Source of the DNA: Bacillus sp. FJAT-22090
GTDB lineage: Bacteria; Bacillota; Bacilli; Bacillales_A; Planococcaceae
Length of the DNA: 64,000 nt
Assembly (NCBI RefSeq): GCF_001278755.1
Contig: NZ_CP012601.1
Span: 2,604,001 to 2,668,000 of the forward strand
Reading direction: 5' to 3'
Below, piece by piece: positions 1,022 to 53,305 of this stretch (position 1 is the first letter of the stretch; each line of letters opens with the position of its first letter). The position numbers and the translations under genes were made by a program. The notes beneath the pieces are model-generated. The model saw nothing but the letters and a program-made list of their open reading frames with translations. It had not been told where the DNA came from and searched no databases.

Positions 1022-3127
1022 CTAGTATTTCAATTTTCCTATTTTCTCAAATTTATTTAAGTTATAGCTTGTGATTTCCCTTACTGCTATCGTGTACAAA
1101 GAATCCTCAACATACAACATTCGTTGAATACTACTTTCCCAATTTTCATAGAGCTGAGAAGGATTGTGGGGGTTTAATAAATTCCCTTTCATTACAATCC
1201 CTTTTTCTGGAGTTATTTCATAAATTAAAGCTCCGTCTTGCTTAAACTGAGCATACTCTTGACCAACGCCTTGCTCATAAATAGTAATTGGAAAGCCATA
1301 TAGATTTTTTTCACGATGTTGGAACAAAGCATGATGATCGTATTGAATAGGTGAGAAAGTTCCTTGCCCTCCAATAACTTCTGTATCCACTTCTTTAGGA
1401 TTTGATAAATCACTTACATCAAACAAAGACACTTTCATTCCCTCAGTCATAATAAGAGGTTCTTTAGAACCCTGTTGTGGGACAATCTTTGTTTCATATC
1501 CAAATCCTATTAGGTGATTTTCGTCTAATGGATGCAAATAATTACTAAAGCCAGGAATTTTTAATTCTCCTAAAACTTTCGGTGCAGTTGGTGTTGCAAC
1601 ATCGATGACAAATAGCGGATCTGTTTGCTTGAAAGTCACCATATATGCTTTATCACCCATGAACCTTGCAGAATAAATACGCTCATCTTTTGCTAGACCC
1701 GTTAAGGACCCAACTATTTTCATCCCTTTATCTAAAATGAAAAGATTGTTTTCGGAAGGTTCATTTTCATCCCAGCTACTCCCTTTCGTAGTTACAGCTC
1801 TGAAATATCCATCATGTTCATCCATGGAAAACTGATTCAATATCGTACCCGTCAAACGACTTGATGCAACAAATTGAACGGATGTTTCGTGAAGCGCAAA
1901 TTTAAATACTTCCGTATCCATTTTACCTGGATTCCATATAAATTTTTTAGAATTGGAATTTGTTGATTCAAAAATTGTTGAAGTTAAATATAAATTTTCC
2001 TTGGACATATATAACTGTTCACTTCCTCCAAGGTACCCCTTTGTCATAACGGTATTATCTTGTAAGTTTTCTACATTGATTGCTGATATAATACTATAAT
2101 TTGCTTGCATGGAATTAGGAAGAATCGCAATGTTATCATAGTTCATAGGTTTCGGTTCTTTATCTGTCTTGGAATCATATACACTAGGACGTAGCTCTAT
2201 ATCCTCATTCTCTTCCATCATCCAAAACTTTGGATAGACAGTAGTTACATAATACAGGGTATTATTTGTTAAACGTGCGCCATTCATATATCCTTCTGTG
2301 GCAATCTCCCTAGACAGTTTAGGTGACGCAGGGTTTGTAATATCATAGAAATACACACTCGTCATGGAATCCATTGGCATTCCAATTCTATCAATATTTT
2401 GTTTACTGTCTGATTCTAGTGTGCGAAACACATTCTTTTGCCCAATGATTATTAACGTATCATTAGACAATAATAGTTGAGAAGGATAAAAATCATTCGT
2501 AAAGCGGATTTTCGTTTCTTCTCTCATTTTCTTGGGATCTTTTACATTTACTATGACTACATTATTTTCACTAATTGAAAAAACATGGGAGCCATTTGTT
2601 TTTACCATATCAGCTTCATCTACACCATCTACCTGGTTATTTGTAGTAGAATAATCTCCTCCTTGAGCATTGGAAGATTCTTTCGATTCTGTTTCCATAG
2701 TGTCTTCCATAATTGTGACTTCTTCATACCCTTGAGTTTTTTTCGCTAGCTCGAAATAAGCTTTTAGTTCTTCCTTTGATTTTACGGATTGAAGTTCTTT
2801 GTACACCGTGAAAGGAAATTTCGTTTTCATAAACTTATTTTTTACATATAAGCTATAGGTACCTTCTTTTAAGCCTGTTATTACAACTACCTTCCCCTTT
2901 TTAGATACACTATGCTTTGCATTAACTTTTTTCCCTTGTTGGTCAGTTACATACATTTCCCCTTTTTTGAATGCATCCTCACTAACTGCCGAAGACAAAG
3001 TAACGATAAATGGTTGGTTGGAAAATACAACATCCTGAGCACTCACGGACGTTCTAGCTGAAAAAAATACTATGACCAATCCAACAATTAATGCCGTACC
3101 AATTATCGACATAATCCACTTCTTCAT
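1022..3127 (-). CDS. Secreted C-terminal beta-propeller domain protein
   Basis: The 701-residue product starts with an uncleaved or weakly cleavable signal/anchor segment (residues 5-25). A roughly 100-residue beta-rich N-terminal domain follows, then the acidic 'TTNNQVDGVDEADMVKTNG' signature that opens the Beta_propel family (PF09826, COG4880). The remainder is WD40-like blades with repeated 'V.DV..P..P' strands. These proteins are extracytoplasmic and of unknown function. The ATG at 3127 has an AGGGAG ribosome site. It is a single gene with its own terminator. The family call is confident; no biochemical role can be read from the sequence. Confidence 0.88.
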   Translation of the reverse strand: MKKWIMSIIGTALIVGLVIVFFSARTSVSAQDVVFSNQPFIVTLSSAVSEDAFKKGEMYVTDQQGKKVNAKHSVSKKGKVVVITGLKEGTYSLYVKNKFMKTKFPFTVYKELQSVKSKEELKAYFELAKKTQGYEEVTIMEDTMETESKESSNAQGGDYSTTNNQVDGVDEADMVKTNGSHVFSISENNVVIVNVKDPKKMREETKIRFTNDFYPSQLLLSNDTLIIIGQKNVFRTLESDSKQNIDRIGMPMDSMTSVYFYDITNPASPKLSREIATEGYMNGARLTNNTLYYVTTVYPKFWMMEENEDIELRPSVYDSKTDKEPKPMNYDNIAILPNSMQANYSIISAINVENLQDNTVMTKGYLGGSEQLYMSKENLYLTSTIFESTNSNSKKFIWNPGKMDTEVFKFALHETSVQFVASSRLTGTILNQFSMDEHDGYFRAVTTKGSSWDENEPSENNLFILDKGMKIVGSLTGLAKDERIYSARFMGDKAYMVTFKQTDPLFVIDVATPTAPKVLGELKIPGFSNYLHPLDENHLIGFGYETKIVPQQGSKEPLIMTEGMKVSLFDVSDLSNPKEVDTEVIGGQGTFSPIQYDHHALFQHREKNLYGFPITIYEQGVGQEYAQFKQDGALIYEITPEKGIVMKGNLLNPHNPSQLYENWESSIQRMLYVEDSLYTIAVREITSYNLNKFEKIGKLKY

Positions 3128-3229: not shown

Positions 3230-4012
3230 AAGACCCCTCTTAAGAAAGGGGTCTTCAGACTGTAGACAAACTCAAATTTATTTTTATATAGGATAGACAG
3301 TTTTTTCCGAACCTTACCGCTCGTTTTCCGCGGGTAAGCTCCGAGGTTACTGAGAAATTCTATAGAATCTTACTTTACTAAATAATATCATCCGATAAAT
3401 GAGAAAATCGTTGAAACGGCTCCCTTTCCGTGGGCGTTGCCTTAGCCTTCTAGGCCAACACGATGTTGGTCATGCAATCGTTGCCGCAGGATGCGGCGAA
3501 CTTAGATTGCCTTCCCCTCAACTGCGGGGTCTTCGGCTAACGCTATTCCCACAGGAGTATCGCCTTTTTCAACGATTTTCTATAAATACTAATTGAAAAG
3601 ATTTTATTTAAAATTTCTCTATTAATGGCATATGGTTTCTAATTTAAATGTGGATAATAGTTGATTGGAGTGAAAGGCGGCGACTCCAGCCGGAATAGCA
3701 AATGTTTTCTGCACCGAAAGCGAAGCGGCAGGTGCATGAGCGAAAAGACCCTGGACTGAACATAGTGAAGGAAGCAGCTGAAGCCATGCCGGCGGAAAGC
3801 GTCCGCTTGGAACGGAAATTAACGAGTCCAACATACCTATTATGAAATCTCATAGAGGACTTTTTCAGTCACCTCGCAACGCTGCTCCTGCAGGGTCTCG
3901 TCTGTCTCGCTTTTCCCGCAGGAGCAGAGCGGATACTTCTCCAATGCACGAGACCAATTAGCCAACTGCCTTTTGTCTTCAATTTGAAGACCCCTCTTAA
4001 GAATGGGGCCTT
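3230..4012. repeat. Composite GC-rich intergenic repeat, block A, flanked by duplicated hairpin
   Basis: A non-coding block bounded by two direct copies of a 26-nt hairpin (3230-3255 and 3987-4012, 24 of 26 identical; arms AAGACCCC/GGGGTCTT). Inside the left copy lies AGACTGTAGACAAACTC (3257-3273), a terminus also seen in block B. Positions 3371-3870 align directly with 52271-52708 of block C. One submodule has inverted ends, AGAAAATCGTTGAAA (from 3402) and its complement (to 3581). Another is bounded by GTTGATTGGAGTG- and GGAAATTAAC-type ends (3660-3822). Positions 3453-3512 are an extra insertion relative to block C and recur inverted in block B. Short open frames here are not genes. Confidence 0.8.
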
Positions 4013-4019
4013 TTTCGTT

Positions 4020-4250
4020 TTATTCTTCTATTTTATTTCCTCTAGTCAATTTTTCGAATTCTTCCATGTCTCTGTTCCTTTTTGGGAGGTAATTAAAAGG
4101 ATTTCTTTCCTGTGCAAATTCCTCTCTTGCATTAACTTGGATACCGATTTTCGTTCCAGCAGTTGCTGTCGGATCATTATATATATTTTCCTTTTCTCCA
4201 TCGAAATGTGGAGTTGCTTCGACATGTTTGTTATCACTTTTTCGAGTCAT
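4020..4250 (-). CDS. Small hydrophilic protein of unknown function (76 aa)
   Basis: The ATG at 4250 is preceded by AAAGGAGAG at good spacing; an in-frame TTG at 4253 is a worse start. The product is charged, has no membrane segment, and begins MTRKSDNKHVEATPHFDGEK. It has a short Asn/Pro/Asp-rich middle and an acidic C-terminus. I do not recognise a family. Expression as a single gene is supported by the ribosome site and by the original terminator hairpin directly after its stop, which block A has since split. Confidence 0.6.
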   Translation of the reverse strand: MTRKSDNKHVEATPHFDGEKENIYNDPTATAGTKIGIQVNAREEFAQERNPFNYLPKRNRDMEEFEKLTRGNKIEE

Positions 4251-4411
4251 CAAATCATCTCTCCTTTATAGATAATATGATGTTGTTAAAGTTGAACTAT
4301 TCCTCTTACTTTTAAGACTATAATTAGTTGCGCAAATCTCCCCTTCTTATAGCAATGCCTCTTTTATTTGTTTCTAAAGTTCGGTGGACGGTCATAGTTT
4401 ATTTTTCAAAC

Positions 4412-4495: not shown

Positions 4496-5692
4496 TCACT
4501 CTTCTTCAAATGGCCATTTTGGTAGCATATGAGAAAGTGTTTTATCTTCTCGGTAGCCAAGTACATATTCCGCTTGCATAATGGTATGGATTTCACGTGT
4601 TCCTTCATAAATTACAGGTGCTTTGGAATTACGTAAATATCTCGCTACTGGATATTCATCTGAATACCCATAAGCACCATGAATTTGTACAGCATCATCT
4701 GCAGCTTTATTTGCAAAGTCGCATGCTTGCCATTTTGCAAGTGACGTTTCACGTGTATTACGAACACCTTTGTTTTTTAACTCTCCTACACGGTAAACGA
4801 GTAATCGGCTCATTTGAAGTCCTGCTTCCATCTTCGCAACCATTTGTTGCACGAGCTGATGTCTTCCAATTTCCTTACCAAAAGTTTCTCTTTCATGACA
4901 GTACTTAACACTTGCTTCTAAACAAGCTAAAGAAAGTCCTACTGCTCCTGCTGCTACCGTAAACCTTCCATTATCGAGAGCAGACATAGCAATTTTAAAC
5001 CCTTCTCCTTCTTTTCCTAAAAGATTCTCTTTCGGCACTCGCATATTTTCAAAAAACAGTTCACCGGTATTTCCGGATTTAATACCGTATTTCCCCTTAA
5101 TTGCTTTGGAGGAGAAGCCTTCCATTGTTCGTTCTACGATGAAAGCACTTATACCGTGGTGCTTTTTAGATTTATCCGTATAGGCAAAGACGATAAAATG
5201 ATCAGCCGCATCACATAATGATATCCATGTTTTTTGCCCATTAATGACATAGTGATCCCCATCGAGCACTGCAACAGTCGACATGGCCGCTACATCTGAA
5301 CCTGCACCTGGTTCTGTTAATCCAAAGGCTCCTATTTTTTCTCCCTTTGCTTGGGGAACTAAATATTTTTGCTTTTGTTCTTCAGTTGCCCACTGCATAA
5401 GCGTCATTGAATTAAGTCCTATATGCACCGACACGGCAGTTCGAAAAGCTGTGTCACCACGTTCTAGTTCTTCGCAAGCAATCGCAAGTGAATTATAATC
5501 CATTCCACTTCCGCCGTATTTCTCCGGAACACAAACTCCCATTAAGCCAAGATCCGCTAGACGTTTCCAGATTCCTTTATCAAATGCACCTTCTATTTCC
5601 CATTTGGCTATATGAGGAATGATTTCACTATCTACAAATTGACGAACTGTTTTTCGTAAAAGGACTTGTTCCTCCGTTAATTCGAAATTCAT
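4496..5692 (-). CDS. Acyl-CoA dehydrogenase, glutaryl-CoA dehydrogenase-like
   Basis: The 398-residue protein has the full acyl-CoA dehydrogenase fold: 'GLTEPGAGSD' at 124-133, 'KTWIS' at 154-158 and the catalytic base in 'IYEGTREIH' (Glu363). The C-terminal 'YGYSDEYPVAR' and 'YEGTREIH' segments resemble bacterial glutaryl-CoA dehydrogenases. The start codon shares one base with the stop of the lysine 6-dehydrogenase gene (TAATG), so the two are translationally coupled. That context supports glutaryl-CoA oxidation to crotonyl-CoA as the last step of lysine breakdown here. The family is certain; the substrate is inferred. A general short-chain enzyme is the alternative. Confidence 0.75.
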   Translation of the reverse strand: MNFELTEEQVLLRKTVRQFVDSEIIPHIAKWEIEGAFDKGIWKRLADLGLMGVCVPEKYGGSGMDYNSLAIACEELERGDTAFRTAVSVHIGLNSMTLMQWATEEQKQKYLVPQAKGEKIGAFGLTEPGAGSDVAAMSTVAVLDGDHYVINGQKTWISLCDAADHFIVFAYTDKSKKHHGISAFIVERTMEGFSSKAIKGKYGIKSGNTGELFFENMRVPKENLLGKEGEGFKIAMSALDNGRFTVAAGAVGLSLACLEASVKYCHERETFGKEIGRHQLVQQMVAKMEAGLQMSRLLVYRVGELKNKGVRNTRETSLAKWQACDFANKAADDAVQIHGAYGYSDEYPVARYLRNSKAPVIYEGTREIHTIMQAEYVLGYREDKTLSHMLPKWPFEEE

Positions 5693-21915: not shown

Positions 21916-22653
21916 AAAGTGTGTGATTTTATTTTAATCGCACACTTTAGACTGGGGACAAACTCGAATATCTTCGTGTTTGAACTACAGTCTTTTTTCT
22001 TACAATAAATATAAATAACCTATTTAGTTGAATTTCACTACGGGCGGACGCTTTCCGCGGGCGGTCCGTGAGCCTCCTCGTCGCAAGCTCCTTCGGGGTC
22101 TCACTTGGACACGCTGTTCCCGCTGGAGTCGCCGTCCTCCGTTTCAATCAACATATGGCTTCCTAATTTTCAAATAGTAAAAGCAAGTTCACTTTGTGTG
22201 AATACTGAAGGCTGCCATTAATTTTTGAATATTTTTTTCCTACAAAAAAATATTTAGAGATATATTATATCTTTCGGATTGAAGACAAAAGGCCGTTAGC
22301 TAAGTGGTTTCGTTCATTAAGTTAATATTGTGTCATCATTTTCAATATTATTCTTCCTGAGTATATAGAAATAATAAGGTAGCATTTTATCGGTTTGGAG
22401 AAGCGTCCGCTCGACTCCTGCAGGAAAAGCGAGACAGACGAGACCCTGCAGGAGCGAAGTAGAGGATGGCAATCTAAGTTCGCCGCGTCCTGCGGCAACG
22501 ATTGCATGACCAACAACCTGTTGGCCCAAGCGGCTCGGCGCTCGCCCGCGGAAAGCGAGCGGTAAGCTTCGGAAAACCTAAACTATCCAATATAATAAAT
22601 TCGAGTTTGGCTACAGTCTGTAGTGTGTGATTTTATTCTGATCGCACACTTTT
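21916..22653. repeat. Composite GC-rich intergenic repeat, block B, with terminal inverted repeats
   Basis: The block is bounded by near-identical direct copies of a hairpin (21916-21948 and 22622-22653, 29 of 31 shared positions; arms GTGTGTGATT/AATCGCACAC). Just inside are 21-bp inverted ends with 18 matches, AGACTG...CAAACTCGAAT at 21949-21969 and its inverse at 22599-22619. The left part holds a GGCGGACGCTTTCCGCGGG / CTGGAGTCGCCGTCC foldback module (about 22030-22140). The right part (about 22275-22525) contains inverted copies of block A segments, including the 58-bp insertion seen at 3453-3512. No gene is present in the 21802-22783 interval. Confidence 0.82.
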
Positions 22654-49769: not shown

Positions 49770-49846
49770 TTTGTATTTTTTAAAAATTTGATGCACAATT
49801 ATAAGAACGAGTGTTTTATTTTTTTACAACTGTGAGGTGTACTTGT

Positions 49847-51994
49847 TTGAAACCAGTTATTCTAGCTGAAAAACCTAGTCAGGCAAAAGCATATGCTGAT
49901 GCTTTTTCAGTCAAAAAACATGAGGGCTTCTTAGAAATCAACCCATGCCCTATTTTCCCCGAAGGAGCCTATATAACCTGGGGAGTAGGTCATCTTGTTG
50001 AACTAAAGGAACCGAAAGCATACGATCCAAAATGGGATAAATGGTCTTTGAATAGTCTTCCCATATTACCAGATCATTATGAATTCCAAGTGGCAAAGGG
50101 GAAATACAAGCAGTTCACCATCGTGAAAAAACTTATGAAAACAACGGATACAATCATAAACGCATGTGATGTGGACCGTGAAGGATCAAATATATTCTAT
50201 AGTATTTACAATCATACTGGAGCAAAAGGAAAGACGATTAAACGATTATGGATTAATTCATTAGAAACTGAAGAAGTTCGTAAAGGTTTTGCTAACTTAC
50301 AGGATAACCGAAAAGATTTACTTTTATATGATGAAGCAAAGGCACGCCAAATTAGTGATTGGCTTGTTGGAATGAATGGATCTAGGCTGTATTCTCTTTT
50401 ATTACAATCACAAGGTATTCGAGAAGTCTTTCCTATCGGCCGTGTTCAATCACCAACTATTTACTTAATTTATCAACGTCAATTGGAAATTGAAAACTTT
50501 GTATCTGAACCATTTTTTGAAGTAGAAGCAATATTCACTGCAACAAACGGGAACTATAAGGGGAAAGCAAAAGTAAAGGAGCCAAAACGAGAAATCATTC
50601 AGGAGCTTCTTGCTAAACATGCTATTCAACGGAATTCACCTGGAGAAATAACTTCTGTAGAAAAGCAGGAAAAACGTATTCCTCCACCCCAACTCCATTC
50701 ATTGTCGACGCTACAAGCTACAGCGAATCGATTATGGAAAATGAGTCCTGCTAATGCTTTAAAGACAATGCAGGGATTGTATGAGAAAAAGCTTGTTACC
50801 TATCCTCGTACGGATTCACGTTATATTACACCAAGTGAATTCTCTTATTTATCATCTAAAGTATCAGAATATCAACAGCTAATTGGACATTCCTTCCCTG
50901 TTACTTCACTCGCTCCTAAAAAGCGATATGTGGACAGTTCAAAAGTACAGGAGCACTACGCAATTATACCGACCAAAAAAATACCTTCGCAGGCTGTACT
51001 TGCCGGCATGTCAGGTATGGAAAGAAATCTTTATGAGGAAATTATCCGTTCAACCCTTGCAATGTTTCATAGTGATTATTTGTATACAGAAACTAAAGTG
51101 ACAACAGTTGTTAATGGGCTGCCCTTTTTCACAACTGGAAAAACGGAAAGAGACAAAGGCTGGAAAGCGTTATTTATTCGTTCTGATAAAGAAAGTGAAA
51201 AAGAAGAACCAACACTCCCTCCTTTATATATGCAAGAAAAAGTAGACAGCGATATTACTATAAAGGAAGGAAAAACAATGCCTCCCAAACCATATACAGA
51301 AGGTCAACTCATTGCAATGATGAAAACCTGTGGAAAATTGGTAGAAGACAAAGGGGAAACTGAAATATTAAAAGAAGTAGAAGGACTGGGAACAGAAGCA
51401 ACCCGAAGTGGAATCATTGAAACAATTAAGAAACACGGATATATTGATGTTACAAAAAATATCGTTTCTATCACAAATAAAGGACGAGTTCTATGCCAAG
51501 CAATTGAAGGAAATCTTCTAGCAAGCCCATCCATGACAGCAAAGTGGGAAACCTATTTACGGAAGATTGGTAATGGAGAAGGTTCTCAGGAACGTTTCCT
51601 TCATAGCATTGGGAAGTTCATAAACAGTTTATTACAAGAAGTTCCTACTCAATTAAAATCAAAAAATATTGATATCAAACTCATTCCGTCTAAAACATCA
51701 AGTTCTAAATATACTAAATATAAACAAGAACCGATCGTGCTATGTCCAAAATGTAAAGAAGGATCTATTGTTGCGCGAAAAGGTTTTTATGGCTGTACCA
51801 ATTATAAAAAAGGTTGCTCGCAAACCTTTAATGGATTCTTTTTAAAAAAGAAGATTACGCCAAGTCAGATTAAACTGCTCTGTACAAAAGGAAAAACAAA
51901 TATTATCAAAGGATTTGTTGCAGAAAACGGGCAAACCTTTAATGCTAGCCTTATGCTAGTCGAAGGCAAGTTAAAACTAGACTTCAAGGAATAA
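49847..51994 (+). CDS. topB: DNA topoisomerase III (type IA)
   Basis: A 715-residue type IA topoisomerase. The Toprim motifs are 'ILAEKPSQA' (Glu8) and 'DVDREG' (108-113), and the catalytic tyrosine is Tyr319 in 'LVTYPRTDSRY'. A C-terminal four-Cys zinc finger 'CPKCKEG...GCTNYKKGC' is present. It relaxes or decatenates DNA through single-strand breaks. The sequence is nearer to the second, plasmid-like TopB of Bacillus cereus-group genomes (IIIbeta) than to the main one, as I recall the families. The start is TTG, seven bases after AGGTG. Monocistronic. Confidence 0.88.
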   Translation: MKPVILAEKPSQAKAYADAFSVKKHEGFLEINPCPIFPEGAYITWGVGHLVELKEPKAYDPKWDKWSLNSLPILPDHYEFQVAKGKYKQFTIVKKLMKTTDTIINACDVDREGSNIFYSIYNHTGAKGKTIKRLWINSLETEEVRKGFANLQDNRKDLLLYDEAKARQISDWLVGMNGSRLYSLLLQSQGIREVFPIGRVQSPTIYLIYQRQLEIENFVSEPFFEVEAIFTATNGNYKGKAKVKEPKREIIQELLAKHAIQRNSPGEITSVEKQEKRIPPPQLHSLSTLQATANRLWKMSPANALKTMQGLYEKKLVTYPRTDSRYITPSEFSYLSSKVSEYQQLIGHSFPVTSLAPKKRYVDSSKVQEHYAIIPTKKIPSQAVLAGMSGMERNLYEEIIRSTLAMFHSDYLYTETKVTTVVNGLPFFTTGKTERDKGWKALFIRSDKESEKEEPTLPPLYMQEKVDSDITIKEGKTMPPKPYTEGQLIAMMKTCGKLVEDKGETEILKEVEGLGTEATRSGIIETIKKHGYIDVTKNIVSITNKGRVLCQAIEGNLLASPSMTAKWETYLRKIGNGEGSQERFLHSIGKFINSLLQEVPTQLKSKNIDIKLIPSKTSSSKYTKYKQEPIVLCPKCKEGSIVARKGFYGCTNYKKGCSQTFNGFFLKKKITPSQIKLLCTKGKTNIIKGFVAENGQTFNASLMLVEGKLKLDFKE

Positions 51995-52038: not shown

Positions 52039-52878
52039 ACGCTTGGACAAATATCCAAGCCCAGATTGTCTACAAAAGGTATCAAGAGGTCGTCCTCTCG
52101 ATACCTTTTGTCATTATAATATTTTACCAGGGGAAATCTTAACTTATATCATATATGTAATTATTCAAAATATTAATCGGAGCGGAGGCGGCAACTCCAA
52201 CGGCAAAAGCGGGACTGTCGAGATCCTGGATTGAGCTTTGGTTGGCACTGAAAAGAAGTCCATAGAATTTGACTTTACTAAATAATGTCGTCCGATAAAT
52301 AAGGAAATCGTTGAAACGGCTCCCTTTCCGCGGGCGTTACCTTAGCCTCCTCGCTGCGCTGCGGGGTCTTCGGCTAACACTATTCCCACAGGAGTATCGC
52401 CTTTTTCAACGATTTTCTATAAATACTAATTGAAAAAATGTAAGTGATAAAAACTTGCTCTATTAATGGCATGATGATTTCCTAATTGAAAAGCGGATAA
52501 TAGTTAATTGGAGTGGAAGGCGGCGACTCCAGCCGGAAGAGCATGAGCTGAAGACCCTGGACTGAGCGTAGCGAGGGAAGCGGCTGAAGCCATGCCGGCG
52601 GAACGCGTCCGCCTGGAACGTAAATTAACGGATCCAAAATAAAAACGAGTATGTGAACAATTTGTCGTTCACATACTGTTATGAAATCTCATGGAGGACT
52701 TTTTCAGTGCCCTAGAGCTTTGCGAAGGAAGCGGCTCGGCCCAGCCCGCGGAAAGCGTCCGCCGGAAGCGGAATCCCAATTCTATTTATCATATTTTTAT
52801 CTTAAAAGAAAAAAGACTATAGATAAACTCAAAATCCAGAGTCTACCTAAAGTCTGACGCTTGGACAAATATCCAAGC
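52039..52878. repeat. Composite GC-rich intergenic repeat, block C, flanked by duplicated hairpin
   Basis: Two identical 22-bp copies of a hairpin (52039-52060 and 52857-52878; stem GCTTGGA/TCCAAGC) bound this block between convergent topB and a GNAT gene. A further terminator-like stem, ACAAAAGGTATC/GATACCTTTTGT, is at 52072-52111. Positions 52271-52708 match block A. The submodule with ends AAATCGTTGAAA is at 52302-52419. A second GC-rich foldback runs about 52504-52630. A local hairpin GTATGTGAAC/GTTCACATAC (52650-52677) is absent from block A. AGACTATAGATAAACTC (52814-52830) resembles the element terminus. No gene lies between 51995 and 52900. Confidence 0.8.
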
Positions 52879-52900: not shown

Positions 52901-53305
52901 TTAACTTCCAGATTGCATTTTATAGTTCCTCAAAATCATTCCATTTGTCTTCGTCATTCCGAACTTTTCGTAATAAGGAACTAAGTCATCGTCACAGCAT
53001 AAATCAATCATATATATGTCTTCAAGCTCTATGAGCATTTGATTTACTAATTCCTTACCTATACCAATACTTTTATATTCTGGTAAAACTTCAAGAAATG
53101 GAATGTAAGCAGATAGAATCCCATCGCTTATCGCTGTAATAAATCCAACTACTTGCTTCGTATTATCATCAATAGCAATAATCACTTTACTGCTCTTCTT
53201 TAACAGATTTAAGTGAGTTTGTGGATTTGGCGGATTCGGCCAATCTACAAAAAAACCATTTAACATATCAGATGAAATACCCTCGAGCGAATTTTTGTAA
53301 ATCAA
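52901..53305 (-). CDS. GNAT family N-acetyltransferase
   Basis: A 134-residue single-domain acetyltransferase with 'VVGFITAISDGILSAYIPFL' forming the central strands and the acetyl-CoA loop 'PEYKSIGIGKELVNQML' near residues 76-92. The start is a TTG eight bases after AGGAGC. It is monocistronic and small for the family but complete. It transfers acetyl from acetyl-CoA to an unknown amine. Confidence 0.84.
   Translation of the reverse strand: MIYKNSLEGISSDMLNGFFVDWPNPPNPQTHLNLLKKSSKVIIAIDDNTKQVVGFITAISDGILSAYIPFLEVLPEYKSIGIGKELVNQMLIELEDIYMIDLCCDDDLVPYYEKFGMTKTNGMILRNYKMQSGS

Follow-up and report, generated by a model that had tools for sequence, protein, structure and literature searches.

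A probable IS1182-family derivative without a transposase lies between two copies of a terminator hairpin in Bacillus sp. FJAT-22090

Results

The window, i.e. the whole 64,000-nt stretch of Bacillus sp. FJAT-22090 DNA analysed here, contains a non-coding block (block A) whose adjoining ORFs, at 1022–3127, 4020–4253 and 4496–5692, all lie on the minus strand. The second of these ORFs encodes 77 aa and is sited between an acyl-CoA dehydrogenase gene and a propeller-like gene. Two 26-nt direct repeats, AAGACCCCTCTTAAGAAAGGGGTCTT at 3230–3255 and AAGACCCCTCTTAAGAATGGGGCCTT at 3987–4012, are identical at 24 of 26 positions and 731 nt apart, with an A-tract (aattaagaaa) outside the left copy and a T-tract (tttcgttttatt) outside the right one. 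This comparison confirmed an earlier sequence-only reading, which had reported a repeated hairpin with A-rich and T-rich outer flanks. The fold of the left copy has a free energy of −13.8 kcal/mol, and none of 150 neighbouring segments of the same length was equally stable. The anchored repeat score of the pair is 20, compared to a best score of 12 among 25,318 cross-locus pairs (loci L001–L060), and the G+C content of the block is 44.4% compared to 36.5% for the window.

The 731 bp between the repeats (3256–3986, plus strand), which begin and end with a terminal C and G, make up element A, very probably a decayed, non-autonomous IS1182-family derivative to judge by its ends and by comparison with complete insertion sequences (IS). 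Its left end, CAGACTGTAGACAAACTC (3256–3273, plus strand), is the same as that of the complete IS in a relative, G012, and its right end, CCTTTTGTCTTCAATTTG (3969–3986, minus strand), resembles the IS right end CCTTTTGTCTACACTCTG, with three mismatches in the 14-nt core; block A and the IS thus have terminal inverted repeats in common. An Rfam search placed a Bacillaceae-1 RNA (RF01690) module at 3455–3521 on the minus strand (68.7 bits). The ORFs of at least 60 aa in the block encode 65, 69 and 70 aa; the block carries no transposase and is classed here as a non-autonomous derivative rather than as an IS. Element A is one of three such elements in the window. Element B (21949–22619, plus strand), whose first 204 positions align to positions 2–207 of the full IS at 73.7%, carries a Bacillaceae-1 RNA module at 22458–22524 (plus strand, 71.2 bits) and lies between hairpin copies at 21918–21948 and 22622–22652 that are identical at 29 of 31 positions. 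Element C (52063–52855, plus strand) lies between convergent ORFs (49811–51994, plus; 52901–53305, minus) and is flanked by hairpin copies at 52039–52060 and 52857–52878, identical at 22 of 22 positions.

A terminator scan assigned the left hairpin of block A (A-tract outside) to the minus strand and reported the right one (T-tract outside) on neither strand, and the count at the block was not above that in shuffled sequences (two overlapping hits compared to a mean of 1.3). The proposal that the block would be carried as 3′ untranslated RNA from both sides found no support here: the neighbouring ORFs all lie on the minus strand, which leaves only transcription from the right to enter the block. 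Such transcripts would meet a right hairpin without a T-tract on their strand and would run on to the left copy. This gene arrangement makes it plausible that block A is carried as 3′ RNA from a single side. Element C, being placed between convergent ORFs, could fit the two-sided picture.

The opening motif of the elements occurs at 56 sites in the 4.21-Mb genome (at most two mismatches), compared to none for a reversed-pattern control; the loci around these sites are L001–L047 and the window. The motif often stands directly 3′ of a stem-loop whose sequence varies by locus. A stem-loop abuts upstream at 36 of the 56 sites at a minimum free energy (MFE) of −6 or below, compared to 66 of 470 random positions, and at 31 sites compared to 22 of 470 positions at −8 or below. 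The remaining 20 of the 56 sites have no abutting stem-loop at the −6 threshold, which counts against insertion with hairpin duplication. When the upstream 40 nt were searched for downstream, with about 65 rows compared, 15 elements showed the hairpin recurring at 160–780 nt, well above all controls, and four (L002, L013, L024 and L028) were marginal. Requiring both ends and an ungapped anchored repeat gave 17 elements (18 rows, with L022 and ‘windowB’ both being element B), of which all except L017 (score 10) have a repeat that folds. Within this genome, anchored hairpin repeats with a score of at least 15 were found in 11 of 235 same-locus comparisons and in none of 25,318 cross-locus ones; at a score of at least 9 the counts were 16 of 235 and 7 of 25,318. 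Locus-specific repeats that fold as hairpins are thus present around genome-wide copies, which was one of the checks proposed with the sequence-only reading.

The kind of element had been left open in that reading; its ends, the matches to the IS1182-family transposase model NF033551 and shared internal sequence now place it with the IS1182-family insertion sequences. NF033551 matches IS loci that have block A-type ends, and the copies in G012 (465.8 bits) and in another genome, G049 (479.3 bits), score above its 270-bit cut-off; several relatives likewise contain IS1182 loci with ends as in the block A elements. In the FJAT-22090 genome there are four NF033551 matches, and the best, the one listed, covers 117 of 488 positions; an active source copy in this genome is thus hypothetical, which counts against the main reading. 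A match over 117 positions begins 290 nt inside element L006, which starts with the exact motif and whose ORF listing shows a transposase remnant in two pieces. Elements L006, L007 and L009 align with the 5′ end of the complete G012 IS over 179–187 nt at 77–78%, and L007 also matches IS positions 466–585, a coding stretch in the IS, at 79%. Internal sequence is shared with the IS by element B (204 nt) and by element A, whose positions 489–567 match IS positions 159–81 over 79 nt at 83.5% in the opposite orientation. Together, the ends and the shared sequence suggest a series that starts with the complete IS of the relatives, continues with copies that have lost internal parts and ends in mosaics such as A and C; the remaining modules of these mosaics recur among the loci in mixed order and orientation. 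At the IS left end, as seen in L092, in relatives and in many copies of this genome, the terminal repeat can pair with an inverted version of itself that lies about 10 nt inward and precedes a T-run, so this end itself looks terminator-like.

The genome contains 56 matches to Bacillaceae-1 RNA. Among the 31 copies with enough flank to be tested, 8 lie in hairpin-flanked elements, compared to 0 of 145 controls. We rejected this RNA as a hallmark of the elements because the other 23 tested copies lie outside them; although a copy is found inside both A and B, most tested copies are located outside such elements, and the RNA acts like a scattered repeat module that occurs elsewhere too. This suggests that the sRNA-gene annotation should be re-examined. 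At one RF01690 locus, L051, a direct repeat of about 111 nt is seen on each side of the match.

In the full-length relatives, the repeats can be compared between nearly identical IS copies. G012 carries six copies of one IS whose bodies are 99.9–100% identical over the aligned part; five have a complete, locus-specific hairpin that is the same on the left and right, and the sixth is truncated at the left. All three copies of the G049 IS are flanked on both sides by a complete, locus-specific hairpin. We then scanned a species-level genome collection with the G012 transposase and took the best 80 of 243 loci, from about 38 genomes, regardless of repeats; these 80 IS loci were found by similarity to that transposase and not individually scored against NF033551. 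Twelve further loci were picked after their repeats had been seen. A search that made no use of the ends gave a direct repeat with a score of at least 16 in 68 of these best 80 of 243 loci, compared to 2 of 796 cross-locus pairs. In L154, which is among the 68, this search picked up a non-hairpin repeat, and shorter flanks gave a hairpin repeat there. An exact repeat abuts both IS ends in 63 of the 80 unselected loci and in all 12 preselected ones (75 of 92 overall), while the 17 unselected loci without an exact repeat at both ends count against the main reading.

These 75 exact repeats span 19–42 nt with a median of 26 nt, and their length follows the span of the stem-loop (Spearman 0.978, and also 0.978 in the 63 unselected loci alone). 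All 75 fold at −5 kcal/mol or below, compared to 126 of 1500 control segments, and they are flush with the 5′ foot of the stem-loop in 64 cases and with the 3′ foot in 62. The 8 nt on the left are 59% A (background 32%) and those on the right 65% T (background 30%), so the IS targets look mostly like intrinsic terminators. One IS copy (L066 and L162, the same locus) bears two different terminator hairpins, one per end, and counts against the main reading, although recombination between two IS copies would give such a pair.

To compare the family more widely, the transposases were grouped by best match into branches a (the G012 type), b and c, with 115 rows in which three duplicated loci were counted once; ten further loci were dropped for having no usable ORF or no match. 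Branch a transposases are 41–100% identical except for an outlier at 21%, L081, which hardly belongs there, and branch b, whose relatives include L238–L243, takes in elements annotated IS1182 and ISSep1. The hairpin repeat is present in 71 of 90 loci of branch a, compared to 0 of 13 in branch b and 0 of 9 in branch c. Branch a is undercounted by these figures, since L196, L200, L204 and L211, which are among its 19 negatives through ORF limits, show a whole or partial hairpin repeat in the end-free search; some of its other negatives end at contig ends, and L081 is one of the 19. The negative loci of branch a count against the main reading. In a 74-row tree, branches b and c each form one clade (100/100) and every row with a hairpin repeat falls within branch a, whose main cluster has a support of 82/97; L063 (G049) sits on a long branch apart from this cluster, and branch a may not be a single clade. 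The hairpin-repeat label needs 10 changes on this tree, because negatives are scattered inside branch a. By reading of the sequences, all six branch-c copies L117–L122 as well as L112 have 8-bp repeats. The branch-b type with ends GAGGCTGGGACAAAA (L099–L108, L110, L125 and L126) has a hairpin on neither side, and several branch-b copies sit between an A-rich and a T-rich flank, an arrangement that would fit replacement of a terminator.

Sites without an element were found for two of the insertions. On the E. faecium linear plasmid pELF_AA94, an IS1182 element (L233) sits between two copies of AAACGATGCCTATTTAGCATCGTTT, and three pELF plasmids without it (AP026606.1, AP026619.1 and NZ_AP026602.1) have a single hairpin with continuous flanks and 100% identity over the 721-base left-flank query. 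The name ISEfa7 comes from the plasmid annotations and is given to L233 through a row at 55% identity, its own record saying only ‘transposase’. For element B, both flanking genes are kept in six of the nine relatives examined. Two of these six, G007 (L254) and G006 (L257), have a single terminator with a related stem (AAAAG[TC]...GTGCATCC...) in gaps of 186 and 153 nt, respectively, whereas the gap here measures 968 nt and holds two hairpins; further along, L254 also has an unrelated second stem-loop. Two unrelated hairpins lie between these genes in G001 (L252), and no hairpin was found between them in G018, G004 and G012 (L253, L255 and L256). After the first flanking gene, 5 of 13 relatives (L246, L251, L254, L257 and L258) have a single hairpin with the related stem, and the element motif was found within 330 nt in none of the 13. 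The differences among these relatives suggest that the terminator turns over in the genus and is single wherever its stem is recognisable. Empty sites of the kind sought by the sequence-only reading exist at other loci, each with one hairpin and no element, for ISEfa7 in three pELF plasmids and for element B in two of six relatives. The other four of these six count against the main reading and lower our confidence in it slightly.

At block A itself, a search through the propeller gene gave no allelic empty site among 18 same-genus relatives. Seven relatives in which an acyl-CoA dehydrogenase gene stands beside the propeller gene were considered as empty sites and rejected as non-allelic, since the ORF at 4020–4253 is absent from them by tblastn and their terminators differ. 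For element C, a search through the topoisomerase gene in 15 relatives found no clearly homologous terminator and gave no allelic empty site either. The lack of such sites for A and C counts against the main reading. In one relative, G011, the element motif (one mismatch; L273) is present 38 nt after the topoisomerase gene orthologous to the neighbour of element C, and this genome may carry its own insertion there.

Discussion

The ends, the kinship with IS1182, the locus-specific repeats that track stem-loop length, and the empty sites of ISEfa7 and element B lead us to the view that a branch of the IS1182-family transposases inserted block A into an intrinsic terminator and duplicated the hairpin, and we consider this explanation highly probable as a whole. 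The core of the sequence-only reading, insertion at a terminator with duplication of the whole hairpin, is thereby supported, through repeats elsewhere in the genome and empty sites at other loci. The transposase, supplied in trans or in the past, would insert the element into the terminator, and repair of two hairpin-long gaps would leave a complete hairpin on each side. Non-coding copies would be mobilised in trans, and block A probably came about in the way that its better documented relatives did. The strongest argument for the structure as the target is that the repeat length follows the stem-loop, with no fixed stagger. The form of DNA attacked may be an extruded cruciform or a single-stranded hairpin, and the strand chemistry we propose is likewise an inference. 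In the available text of the published IS1272 model, attack at the 3′ foot leads to loss of the stem-loop, and attack at the 5′ foot is given as a possibility that would duplicate the whole stem-loop (PMC5678879). The repeats observed here are what this 5′-foot pathway predicts.

Several other origins of the two hairpins were weighed. If the outer hairpins belonged to the element as a terminator at each end, a hairpin directly outside both ends would be expected, and most good copies show this; at some IS left ends, moreover, the end sequence itself folds into a terminator-like hairpin. We nonetheless give this explanation almost no credence, since the outer hairpin is locus-specific even among IS copies with 99.9–100% identical bodies, and the element-free sites on the pELF plasmids and in the element B relatives already contain it. 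A fixed transposase stagger of about 26 nt, acting on terminators that are coincidentally of that size, would agree with the median repeat length of 26 nt. It is very improbable given lengths of 19–42 nt that vary with the span of the stem-loop (Spearman 0.978), with the stem-loop feet flush in 64 of 75 repeats at 5′ and 62 of 75 at 3′; for the same reason, branch a does not display a conventional target duplication of fixed short length.

Replacement of the stem-loop as by IS1272, with a second hairpin gained later, takes its appeal from the same family: the available text on IS1272 and TnSha1 describes stem-loop loss with terminators among the targets (PMC5678879, PMC4923244), and branch-b copies are hairpin-free on both sides, several of them between A-rich and T-rich flanks. 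Its chance is very slim in view of branch a, whose elements retain two copies of the original hairpin where three IS-free pELF plasmids have one, and whose hairpin repeat is found in 71 of 90 loci compared to 0 of 22 in branches b and c. Deletion without duplication is also not what the unselected loci record, with two hairpin copies in 63 of 80 and one in empty sites. Finally, the two hairpins and the mosaic interior might both stem from an ordinary tandem duplication or from recombination among dispersed repeats; the modular interior is common to loci in mixed order and orientation, and the hairpin copies of element A differ at 2 of 26 positions. We rate this origin as very improbable because many loci show this geometry again, flush against the ends of a known transposon family. 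Recombination may still account for the interior of block A.

The target duplications left by DNA transposases commonly have a fixed length, which the protein determines. With confidence only a little better than even, we propose that this IS1182 branch instead measures its target by structure: it would recognise an extruded hairpin and attack both strands at their 5′ feet, and the duplicated segment would then be a single complete hairpin, whatever its length. Sister branches would either remove the hairpin or cut with an 8-bp stagger, and target chemistry would thus have switched within the family. With a hairpin left on both sides by each insertion, such elements could spread between genes with little harm and seed terminator-flanked non-coding blocks across genomes. 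The duplication seen here follows the secondary structure of its target and supplies dozens of naturally occurring examples of a pathway that is only drawn in the IS1272 model. Comparison within a family whose members duplicate the hairpin, probably delete it, or leave 8 bp would help to find the part of the transposase that decides the outcome. Hairpin duplication also suggests where the terminator-flanked intergenic repeat blocks of Bacillales come from.

Direct repeats of 0 to 60 bp are listed for IS1182 members in the ISfinder tables, and database curators may know of hairpin duplication already. In the part of the literature that our searches covered, we found no report of whole-hairpin duplication in real IS copies, nor of repeats tracking stem-loop length, of element-free sites, or of restriction to one part of the family. 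The targeting of terminators and hairpins by IS1182 elements is already published, as far as the available text of these papers goes (PMC3098183, PMC4923244, PMC5678879). In ISCbo5, an IS1182-family element of Clostridium botulinum group III and C. novyi, all insertion sites but one are hairpins at gene ends, which were taken as transcription stop signals; compared with the block A kin by description only, whole-hairpin duplication is not stated for ISCbo5 in the available part of that report (PMC3098183). IS1272 and TnSha1, in the family by name, resemble the block A elements in having as their target a stem-loop, often a terminator, with no common target sequence. They differ in that they delete all or part of the stem-loop with no target duplication in the accounts available (Wan et al. 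2017, PMC5678879; Furi et al. 2016, PMC4923244), whereas here it is kept and duplicated. ISEfa7 of Enterococcus faecium has a transposase 55% identical to the G012 type, the same ends and a duplicated hairpin; it is a full-length IS with its transposase, whereas block A is without one.
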